A stretch of 5,185 bases of DNA from contig JALVZS010000009.1 in the NCBI GenBank assembly GCA_027022065.1, positions 1-5,185 on the forward strand. The letters run 5' to 3'. The first letter of the stretch is position 1. Every line of letters starts with the position of its first letter. The translations under genes were made by a program, and so were the position numbers. Of the stretch, positions 2,227 to 4,271 are shown piece after piece. The stretch is from a bacterium. GTDB taxonomy: Bacteria > Thermosulfidibacterota > Thermosulfidibacteria > Thermosulfidibacterales > Thermosulfidibacteraceae. The notes below the pieces were generated by a model, which was not told the DNA's origin, made no database searches, and worked only from the letters and a program-made list of their open reading frames with translations.

Positions 2227-3198
2227 TTAGCCTTCCTTTATCTTTTCCCTAACCTTCACGCCAAAGTGGCGGCCTGCCTCTGTAACATGGGCGAGCACCC
2301 TGTCTCCGGGCTTCAGCCTAACCACCGATATGGGAGAGCCATCAGGAGCAGTGAGCCTTATGGTTTCGGCATTCTGCAGGATCAAACTACCCTCTCTATC
2401 ATTATGGCGGGCCTTCACTATAAGAAGAGGCCTCACCTCGGTCTTGTTTCTTCCCACAACAGCTTCCCTTGCCTCTCCCTTGGCATTGACCACAAGCACC
2501 CTTTCCCCTGCTGAAAGCTCGCAAAGATACTTGGTCTTGTTCTCTGGGCAGAGGATATAGGCGTGCACCCCTCCCGCATTAACCCTAAAGGGCCTAGGGG
2601 CCACGTAGGGATTCTCTATGCTTTCTGAGTGAACAAGAAAGAGAAAGCCGCTTGTGTCTCCCACAAGCATCCCTTCGGACGGCGTCATAAGTTCCGTGGT
2701 ATCCACGCACACCCTGTATCCCATGCCCACAGGCCTTATCTCCGTAACTTCCGCCTCCACAAGCTCAAGGTTTAAGGTGCGCCTTTTAACAATCCTACCC
2801 ACCTCTTTAACTACAGAAGGGTCTTGAGTTTCAAGAAGTACCCCCTTTGTTCCCACCTCCAGAACCCCAATGGCAAGCTCCGCCTCCTCCGGACTCCTCA
2901 CCACGGCTATGATGTTCTGGGACTGAGAAACAAGATTTTCCAAGGGTATCACCTTCCAGTCCTTCCCATCCACAACAACAGGACCTGCCTTTGAAAGCTC
3001 AAGGGCCTTTAACTCATCCTCTTTTGAAGAAATCTCCACAAAGACCAGATCATCTATAGCAATGGCATCCACTATTCCAAGCTCTCTGACCTTTGGGATG
3101 TTCTCCCCTTCAACTATGACAGCATCCGCTCCTGCCTCTATGGCAGAGGTTACTATCTTCTTGTTCCAGGGAACCGCCTTTACCCAGAAAAGCTTCAT
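2227..3198 (-). CDS. aroB': 3-dehydroquinate synthase II (archaeal-type)
   Basis: A 323-residue enzyme of the AroB' family (EC 1.4.1.24), which uses NAD to oxidatively deaminate and cyclise 2-amino-3,7-dideoxy-D-threo-hept-6-ulosonate to 3-dehydroquinate. It replaces the DAHP-dependent AroB of most bacteria. The conserved blocks are clear: an N-terminal alpha/beta part starting [20 protein letters not shown], the family signature [17 protein letters not shown] at 177-193, and [19 protein letters not shown] at 196-214, followed by a beta-rich C-terminal domain ending in an HFGVKV segment. Length matches the family. Its ATG overlaps the TGA of aroA' in an ATGA arrangement (3195-3198), indicating translational coupling of two consecutive pathway enzymes. 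Expression is expected to depend on the attenuator upstream of aroA'. Confidence 0.95.
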
Positions 3199-3989
3199 TT
3201 GAGCACCTCCATGGCCTCCTCCACGCTGGCACCCTCATGCACTATCATGGATATGGCCCTCACCATGGCCACGGGATTCTCGTGCTGGAATACATTTCTT
3301 CCTATGGAAACCCCAGCTCCTCCAGCCTCCATGGCACCCTTCACCATCCTAAGCACATCCTCTGCCGTGTCCATCTTCTCGCCGCCGGCAATTACCACAG
3401 GAATGGGACATCCCTCCACAACCTCGGCAAAGCTCTCCGGGCTTCCGGTGTAGGGCACCTTAACTATGTCGGCTCCAAGCTCTGCTCCCACCCTTGCTGC
3501 ATGCTTCACCACAGAGGGATCATACTGGTTTCTTATCTTAGGCCCCCTCGCATAAACCATGGCCAGAAGAGGCATTCCCCACTCCAGGCACTTGGCAGAA
3601 ATCATGCCGAAATCCCTGAGCATGGTCATCTCATCCTCGGCTCCTATGTTGACGTGGATGGAAACTGCATCGGCGCCAAGCTTTATGGCCTCCTCTACGG
3701 TGCACACCAGCACCTTGTTGTTGGGTGTGGGAGAAAGGCAGGTGCTTGCAGAAAGGTGGACTATCAGACCAATATCCCTTCCCCTCTTCCTATGCCCCAC
3801 AGGTACTATACCCTTGTGGATCACAATGGCGTTGGCCCCTCCTTCCGCCACCTTGTCAATGATCTCCCGCATATTGATTAAGCCCCTTATAGGTCCCACC
3901 GTAATGCCGTGATCCATAGGAACGATAACGGTTTTGCCCTTTTCCCTGTCCATTATCCTCTCAAGCCTGATCTCTTTACCTACTATCAT
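3195..3989 (-). CDS. aroA': 2-amino-3,7-dideoxy-D-threo-hept-6-ulosonate (ADH) synthase, DeoC/FbaB-type aldolase
   Basis: A 264-residue class I aldolase that performs the first step of the alternative route to dehydroquinate, joining 6-deoxy-5-ketofructose 1-phosphate and aspartate semialdehyde to give ADH (family knowledge, from the Methanocaldococcus enzyme MJ0400). Visible features of the TIM barrel are [11 protein letters not shown] at 23-33 with the likely catalytic Asp26, [11 protein letters not shown] at 144-154 with Tyr146, [13 protein letters not shown] at 173-185 with the Schiff-base Lys177, and IAGGEK plus [13 protein letters not shown] as the phosphate-binding loops near the C-terminus. 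The start at 3989 is preferred because it is preceded by a purine-rich GAGGGGGGTGGAGAG; the in-frame ATG at 4028 would put the N-terminus across a terminator hairpin and U tract. It is the first gene of the aromatic operon. A related fructose-bisphosphate aldolase function is possible, but the adjoining aroB' makes ADH synthase the best call. Confidence 0.95.
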
Positions 3990-4009: not shown

Positions 4010-4054
4010 ATAATAAAAAAAGGGCCATGGGAGCAGAAAGCTTCCATGGCCCTT
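4010..4054 (-). terminator. Intrinsic terminator of the aromatic attenuator (arms 4:5)
   Basis: Read on the minus strand, AAGGGCCATGG (4054-4044) pairs perfectly over 11 bases with CCATGGCCCTT (4030-4020). One A/C mismatch and three more pairs (AGC with GCT) close a TTTCT loop. The stem runs directly into five further U residues and AUUAU, giving a classic GC-rich hairpin plus U tract. It ends about 20 bases before the aroA' start codon, so it must be bypassed for the operon to be expressed. It would also end any transcript coming through from the upstream nucleotidyltransferase gene. Arm 4 can instead pair with arm 3, which would prevent this hairpin. Confidence 0.88.
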
Positions 4055-4079
4055 CTGGAAAATTTTTTAAGGGCCATGG
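4044..4079 (-). promoter_or_regulatory. Antiterminator pairing (arms 3:4)
   Basis: Minus-strand CCATGGCCCTT (4079-4069) is perfectly complementary over 11 bases to AAGGGCCATGG (4054-4044), with a 14-base A/T-rich loop. This pairing uses the entire 5' arm of the terminator, so the two hairpins are mutually exclusive. It should form when arm 3 is not held by arm 2. Confidence 0.75.
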
Positions 4080-4106
4080 GGGGCTTGAGGCCCGCCCATG
4101 GCCCTT
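4069..4106 (-). promoter_or_regulatory. Anti-antiterminator hairpin (arms 2:3)
   Basis: Minus-strand AAGGGCCATGGG (4106-4095) pairs over 12 bases with CCCATGGCCCTT (4080-4069). After a single bulged C at 4094, four further pairs (GGGC with GCCC) close a CTCAA loop. It holds arm 3 away from arm 4 and so favours the terminator. It has no U tract and is unlikely to terminate by itself on this strand. Confidence 0.75.
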
Positions 4107-4144
4107 TGTAGGCCTTACCTTTTAGGGCGCCATGGACGGGCCCC
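4087..4144 (-). promoter_or_regulatory. Sensor hairpin (arms 1:2) spanning the end of the leader peptide frame
   Basis: Minus-strand bases 4144-4124 can pair with 4105-4087 over 19 base pairs, interrupted only by a two-base bulge (4128-4127) and including two G-U pairs. The 5' arm starts three bases after the run of aromatic codons and lies inside the leader frame; the leader stop codon is in the 18-base loop. A ribosome paused in the aromatic run would leave this stem free to form and occupy arm 2. A ribosome that reaches the stop codon would disrupt arm 1. The pairing was found by hand, not by a folding program. Confidence 0.75.
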
Positions 4145-4231
4145 CTTAAAGTAATACCACCAAAAGTAGAAGAAATCTTTGGACACTGTCTGGAAGGAAG
4201 GTGCTATGTATGCAACACTAATTCTACCCAT
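4115..4231 (-). CDS. Aromatic-rich attenuator leader peptide
   Basis: A 38-codon frame from ATG at 4231 to TAA at 4117-4115, inside the leader of the aroA' operon. The peptide begins [19 protein letters not shown]; residues 20-28 are FFYFWWYYF, nine aromatic residues in succession covering Phe, Tyr and Trp, and the tail GARPWRPKR is basic and adds one more Trp. Such a run is not expected by chance and is the hallmark of a leader peptide in ribosome-mediated attenuation, comparable in principle to TrpL or PheL but apparently sensing all three aromatic amino acids. The product itself is probably not functional. No Shine-Dalgarno sequence precedes the ATG; the predicted transcription start is only about 2-4 bases upstream, so translation may be essentially leaderless. 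An in-frame GTG at codon 16 is an alternative start and would keep the aromatic run. Confidence 0.88.
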
Positions 4232-4235
4232 CTTG

Positions 4236-4249
4236 GTTAAAATTTTAAC
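4236..4249. repeat. 14-base perfect palindrome overlapping the -10 element
   Basis: GTTAAAATTTTAAC is a perfect inverted repeat placed between the stop codon of the upstream gene and the leader peptide start, covering the predicted -10 box. It could be an operator half-site pair for a repressor, or simply the A/T-rich surroundings of the promoter. Confidence 0.35.
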
Positions 4250-4271
4250 ATTCACGGGTGAGCCTTGTCAA
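4242..4271 (-). promoter_or_regulatory. Sigma70-type promoter of the aromatic operon
   Basis: On the minus strand a consensus TTGACA (4271-4266) is followed after 18 bases by TAAAAT (4247-4242), five of six matches to TATAAT. The -35 box lies within the last codons of the upstream nucleotidyltransferase gene. The expected transcription start is near 4233-4236, just before the leader ATG at 4231, giving a leader of roughly 245 bases before aroA'. The position fits the downstream attenuator well. Confidence 0.7.

Follow-up and report, generated by a model that had tools for sequence, protein, structure and literature searches.

The minus strand of the window, by which we mean the whole 5,185-nucleotide stretch of DNA analysed here, carries what is very probably a ribosome-mediated transcription attenuator of an aroA'-aroB' operon for aromatic amino acid synthesis. 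It combines a short leader open reading frame (ORF), rich in codons for the operon's own amino acid products, with an intrinsic terminator and an alternative fold that excludes it, as is typical of attenuators read by the ribosome. The anatomy of the element, its two exclusive pairings, their covariation and the conservation of the aromatic leader were established by sequence analysis and computation.

The leader is preceded by a sigma-70-type promoter (4242–4271, minus strand) that matches the consensus at 11 of 12 positions, with TTGACA at 4271–4266, an 18-nt spacer and TAAAAT at 4247–4242; relatives from the same order also carry a TTGACA promoter, likewise positioned with respect to the leader ATG. 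Transcription would start at about position 4235. A tRNA nucleotidyltransferase-like gene (5154–4252, minus strand) lies upstream of the leader, and the controlled genes follow on the same strand. Gene 1 (3195–3989) encodes an archaeal-type 2-amino-3,7-dideoxy-D-threo-hept-6-ulosonate (ADH) synthase, aroA' (TIGR01949, 392.8 bits, cut-off 299.45), and gene 2 (2227–3198) a 3-dehydroquinate synthase II, aroB' (NF002627, 445.9 bits, cut-off 392); together they open the archaeal-type route to aromatic amino acids, catalysing its first and second steps.

Directly 3' of aroB' (2204–428, minus strand) we observed two further genes that are possibly under the same control. One (1692–2204) encodes a 2-oxoacid (indolepyruvate-like) ferredoxin oxidoreductase subunit (Pfam POR PF01558, E 2.4e-22; best NCBIfam match E 8e-22, under cut-off), the other (428–1717) a phenylacetate-CoA-ligase-like enzyme with AMP-binding domains (TIGR02155, 430.6 bits, under the cut-off of 646.3). 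Enzyme pairs of this kind are known in archaea, where they salvage aryl acids into aromatic amino acids, and the gene order suggests that such salvage may form one transcription unit with aroA'-aroB'. At the edge of the window, the minus strand (3–236) holds an incomplete gene whose product matches the AbiEii nucleotidyl transferase domain (Pfam PF08843, E 4.8e-10); this protein is a putative component of a type IV toxin-antitoxin-like system.

The leader ORF (4115–4231, minus strand) contains nine consecutive aromatic codons, FFYFWWYYF (4148–4174), which form the presumed sensing site. Relatives have aromatic-rich counterparts ahead of aroA', in which the cluster is retained but F, Y and W follow one another in varying order. 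No Shine-Dalgarno sequence is evident in the window leader, and its ATG stands close to the promoter. Within the window's order, the ATG follows the −10 box by 7–10 nt in aro leaders and by 5–7 nt in four of six trp leaders (described below), against mostly 18–44 nt outside the order, where a second cluster lies at 7–9 nt. Spacings of 5–10 nt were seen in the window (4271–4231) and in L002, L003, L083, L086, L087, L088, L090 and L116–L119, a set that includes both aro and trp leaders. Since transcription is expected to start about 7 nt past the −10 box, an ATG 7–10 nt past it would coincide with the transcription start or lie only a few bases from it. Judged from consensus promoters, the leader-peptide mRNA would therefore be leaderless or nearly so across the window's order.

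Five arms occupy positions 4144–4019 of the minus strand, all of them where the original prediction had placed them, and can pair in two mutually exclusive ways, either as 1:2 with 3:4 (18 and 11 pairs) or as 2:3 with 4:5 (15 and 14 pairs). The predicted count for 3:4 was exact, and those for 1:2 and 2:3 (19 and 16) were close, each one pair too high. Arm 1 (4125–4144) lies inside the leader ORF and begins three bases past the aromatic codons, as proposed, with the last codon, TTT, ending at 4148 and the arm starting at 4144. Its partner is arm 2 (4087–4105; 1:2, −38.3 kcal/mol), and the leader stop codon (TAA, 4117–4115) falls between these two arms, enclosed by their helix as had been foreseen. 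Arm 2 can instead pair with arm 3 (4069–4084; 2:3, −33.1 kcal/mol), and arm 3 with arm 4 (4040–4054; 3:4, −21.8 kcal/mol), both partners of arm 3 being supported by covariation and pair counts. Arm 4 is also the 5' arm of the predicted intrinsic terminator, which is completed by arm 5 (4034–4019) and a U tract (4021–4015), together spanning 4015–4034 (4:5, −24.7 kcal/mol); the 4:5 hairpin is evident in the sequence and in each fold. A simple terminator scan of the window did not flag it, probably because its stem is interrupted by a mismatch and extends into the U tract. No U tract follows arm 3 in the window or in several relatives, so arms 1 and 2 can act on termination only via 3:4. The fold of the window leader is more stable than that of dinucleotide-shuffled sequences (z −4.9; none of 200 as good), and none of 500 versions with letter-shuffled arms gives a 1:2 or a 3:4 helix as strong as the real one.

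For comparison we assembled 80 loci, 60 related genomes and a 297-genome phylum sample, which yielded 77 carriers and further upstream regions; for the phylum of genome G031, the survey covered three genomes only. An ORF with at least six aromatic residues in nine was present in 88 of 155 upstream regions, a set that includes identical or nearly identical regions. After removal of near-repeats, archaea and regions shorter than 200 nt, 114 non-redundant bacterial regions upstream of the ADH synthase gene were left, 66 of which carry such a leader. In the first set it was found in 33 of 51 bacterial regions and in none of the 12 archaeal homologue regions that served as controls, and shuffled controls reached six of nine in 6 of 630 cases and seven of nine in 0 of 630. 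The aromatic leader is present in each of the nine genomes from the window's order, with five arms in eight and in a simpler form in one (L085, in G003). The architectures form a series: in the simpler leaders 1:2 competes with a single terminator, 2:3; others have a U tract after each of the hairpins 2:3 and 4:5; and the window, like its close relatives, has one after 4:5 alone. One genome, Pseudodesulfovibrio STD2_191, has two ADH synthase genes, each behind its own, different aromatic leader (L057 and L062). In another group (L009, L021, L026, L030, L039 and similar), the leader peptides share a C-terminal motif like CASTFKR. Arm 1 (GCGCCTCGACTTTTAAAAG) encodes this motif, so what is conserved is probably the RNA arm and not the peptide.

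Lack of covariation among relatives had been set beforehand as evidence against the prediction. Across 19 five-arm leaders, whose arm cores were aligned and set in register by hand (alignment A1), both pairings covary. In the 1:2 + 3:4 state, 88.3% of cells are paired and two-sided changes occur in 14 pairs; for the 2:3 + 4:5 state the figures are 94.5% and 10. In neither case did any of 500 shuffles, scored by percentage paired and by a covariation score, reach the observed values, and slid versions, which span 22–54%, gave at most 46% for the first state and 54% for the second. Related sequences may beat shuffles without any structure, so the slid controls and the functional argument are important here. 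Two-sided changes occur at 8 of 11 pairs of helix 1:2. When species labels were permuted for each helix, none of 2000 permutations reached the observed value for 1:2, 2:3 or 4:5, against 63 of 2000 for 3:4, the weakest-covarying of the four helices when taken alone; the 3:4 core could partly reflect duplication of a hairpin. In five relatives, a mismatch falls within 4:5 where the same arm-4 base is still paired in 3:4 (columns 59/70 and 40/59 of A1).

We modelled the switch by folding the RNA at successive lengths with the ribosome-covered bases removed, assuming a ribosome edge 16 nt from the first P-site base, which lies at 4104 for a ribosome at the stop codon. With the transcript extended to arm 4, and either no ribosome or one stalled at F20, F23 or W25, helices 1:2 and 3:4 have 18.0 and 10.9 expected pairs at 37 °C; with a ribosome at the stop codon, 2:3 has 14.0 and 3:4 none. 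The no-ribosome, two stalled and stop outcomes in the window are unchanged at 65 °C. The folding model thus reproduces, at both temperatures, the original proposal that a stall leads to the read-through fold and completion of the leader to the terminator fold. A stall at the last aromatic codon, F28, already hides enough of arm 1 to give 2:3. When arm 3 has just been made and arm 4 is absent, 2:3 is favoured even with arm 1 free, which means that 1:2 must persist or be regained once arm 4 appears. Once arm 5 is present, the terminator hairpin 4:5 wins at equilibrium whichever scenario is modelled for the window, and the full 2:3 + 4:5 state does so in nearly all of them, so the switch, and with it read-through, must be kinetic. 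Counting helix energies only, the two states lie within about 2 kcal/mol of each other in the window at that stage, and rough estimates of the direct-path barrier to the terminator state are about 15 kcal/mol in the window and about 5 kcal/mol in L002. The model points to an outcome decided by kinetics, as in attenuators generally.

Of 18 five-arm leaders folded in this way, 17 favour 1:2 + 3:4 at one or more stall positions when a ribosome halts in the aromatic cluster, the exception being L051, which shows no switch; with a ribosome at the stop codon, L083, L088, L058 and L043 keep partial 3:4. Without a ribosome, at the end of arm 4, the window, L002, L083, L087 and L088 fold as 1:2 + 3:4 at 37 and 65 °C, L003 and L086 favour 2:3 at 37 °C, and three other five-arm leaders (L007, L032 and L033) lose 1:2, consistent with an extra upstream arm that may pair with arm 1.

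Together, these data suggest the following mechanism. Translation of the leader peptide would begin at, or only just inside, the 5' end of the mRNA. A shortage of Phe-, Tyr- or Trp-tRNA would stall the ribosome within FFYFWWYYF, upstream of arm 1; arm 1 would then hold arm 2 and arm 3 would hold arm 4, so that 4:5 would come too late and the operon would be transcribed. If the ribosome instead reached the leader stop codon, 2:3 would form, arm 4 would be free to pair with arm 5, and transcription would be expected to end near 4015 in the cell. An untranslated leader should fold as 1:2 + 3:4 and give read-through, since no upstream arm pairs with arm 1; this default is plausible, as a kinetic prediction of the model.

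A different arrangement appears before another operon of the same order. A pattern search for the common arms found the same tandem hairpins behind WWWW or WWW leaders in six genomes (leaders L116–L121, from G008, G005, G007, G004, G003 and G001). In five of them (G001, G004, G005, G007 and G008) trpE was confirmed downstream by matches to the model TIGR00564, below its cut-off; in the sixth, G003, the contig ends soon after the leader. In the folding model without a ribosome, arm 1 pairs with an additional, protecting arm 0, which comprises the Trp codons or adjacent bases, to give 0:1 + 2:3. A stall at the Trp codons gives 1:2 + 3:4, and a ribosome at the stop codon leads to 2:3, although L119 shows a mixture in that case. 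The trp leaders would accordingly be six-arm, his-like attenuators that terminate when untranslated. The aro leader of the window lacks arm 0 and, with no upstream competitor, retains its 18.0 pairs of 1:2 without a ribosome. Only the C-terminal part of trpE was found in the window genome, whose own trpE leader is thus unreadable. The comparison raises the possibility, which we hold to be a little likelier wrong than right, that two attenuators of one uncultured order with like arms have opposite defaults: when initiation fails on the leaderless aro mRNA its operon would stay on, while an untranslated trp leader would terminate. If so, the aro attenuator would sense not only the charging of aromatic tRNAs but also a failure to translate the leader.

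Among other explanations, the one closest to ours accepts the attenuator and disputes its default: 4:5 might form fast enough to displace 3:4, and the untranslated leader would terminate, as that of E. coli trp does. The victory of 4:5 at equilibrium whenever arm 5 is present speaks for this, as do the low barrier in L002 (only about 5 kcal/mol) and the preference of L003 and L086 for 2:3 without a ribosome at 37 °C. Yet the window and four relatives adopt 1:2 + 3:4 without a ribosome at both temperatures, the estimated direct-path barrier in the window is about 15 kcal/mol, and the window has no protecting arm, unlike the trp leaders of the same order; we therefore consider default termination unlikely, though it deserves to be taken seriously. 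Considerably less probable is a reading in which the only switch is 1:2 against 2:3, the terminator 4:5 is independent, and 3:4 is a by-product of a duplicated hairpin with no role. Here the weak covariation of 3:4 would find an explanation, a simple 1:2/2:3 switch does work in the several relatives with a U tract on 2:3, and the simpler leaders do without 4:5 altogether. In the window and its closest relatives, however, the missing U tract after arm 3 would leave 4:5 unconditional and the strongly covarying 1:2 without purpose. Moreover, 3:4 is stronger than nearly all shuffled arms in 18 of 18 leaders tested (0–4 of 500 reach it), and it stays paired where 4:5 is mismatched.

Two further alternatives would do away with ribosome-mediated control, and we regard both as highly improbable. 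The hairpins lie directly 3' of the tRNA nucleotidyltransferase gene, whose ORF ends at 4252, and could be no more than its pair of terminators, with no regulatory leader at all; but a promoter and an aromatic leader ORF stand at and past the end of that gene, and in relatives the device accompanies the ADH synthase gene and is also found before trpE. A protein or small-molecule sensor of the T-box, TRAP or riboswitch kind might read the leader in place of the ribosome, a view for which we found no supporting point. Searched against Rfam at E up to 10, the window matched only unrelated RNAs, all below threshold, nine related loci gave no match at the gathering threshold, and the run of aromatic codons with varying order of F, Y and W argues for codon sensing. 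The ribosome-mediated attenuator remains our preferred reading.

Among known systems, the closest relative is the his leader of E. coli and Salmonella, not E. coli trp. The his attenuator forms stem-loops AB, CD and EF with the alternative DE (PMC10989985), and its extra hairpin has been discussed as a guard against basal read-through (PMC1183508). In both systems the arms form a chain, one more hairpin is inserted ahead of the terminator, after the leader, and an alternative pairing can sequester the terminator's 5' arm. Arms 1–5 of the window correspond to B–F, and the scheme of BC + DE against CD + EF is present and covarying. The window looks like a his leader without arm A, so that an untranslated leader is not forced to terminate, and it further differs in its mixed Phe/Tyr/Trp codons, the absence of an evident Shine-Dalgarno sequence, its lineage and its genes. 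With the E. coli trp attenuator it shares a leader peptide with sensing codons, an exclusive terminator and antiterminator, and the coupling of ribosome position to folding; the trp attenuator has four arms with the sensing codons in arm 1, whereas the window has five and its codons end 3 nt upstream of arm 1.

A leader-peptide mRNA starting at or near its start codon has precedents in Sinorhizobium meliloti, where the 5' end of rnTrpL is the trpL ATG (PMC7298713), and in Corynebacterium glutamicum, where the ilvBNC leader is described as lacking a ribosome binding site in the title of reference 42 of PMC4046766. These leaders concern other amino acids and other arms, and the comparison covers the position of the mRNA start. 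PMC4046766 also describes a putative attenuator with an aromatic leader (Phe-Tyr-Phe) before the DAHP synthase gene aroF of C. glutamicum, which resembles the window in placing an aromatic leader before the first enzyme of aromatic amino acid synthesis. There the enzyme is the standard shikimate entry enzyme rather than the archaeal-type ADH synthase, the codon run is shorter, and the passages concerned report no five-arm chain. We found no description of such an attenuator for this gene or these lineages in the open-licence papers searched, and the main text of the premature-terminator survey by Naville and Gautheret (PMC2965389) does not feature these genes or lineages.

The element is thus a variant of ribosome-mediated attenuation that is new with respect to Rfam and the open-licence papers searched. 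With it, this form of control reaches the archaeal-type entry pathway to aromatic amino acids, both in an uncultured lineage and in genomes labelled as Deltaproteobacteria, where it is widespread. The simpler, five-arm and six-arm versions constitute a natural series in which the gain and loss of extra and protecting arms can be followed, and the apparent leaderless start, together with the missing protecting arm, predicts that the operon would be on without translation, the reverse of the textbook case.
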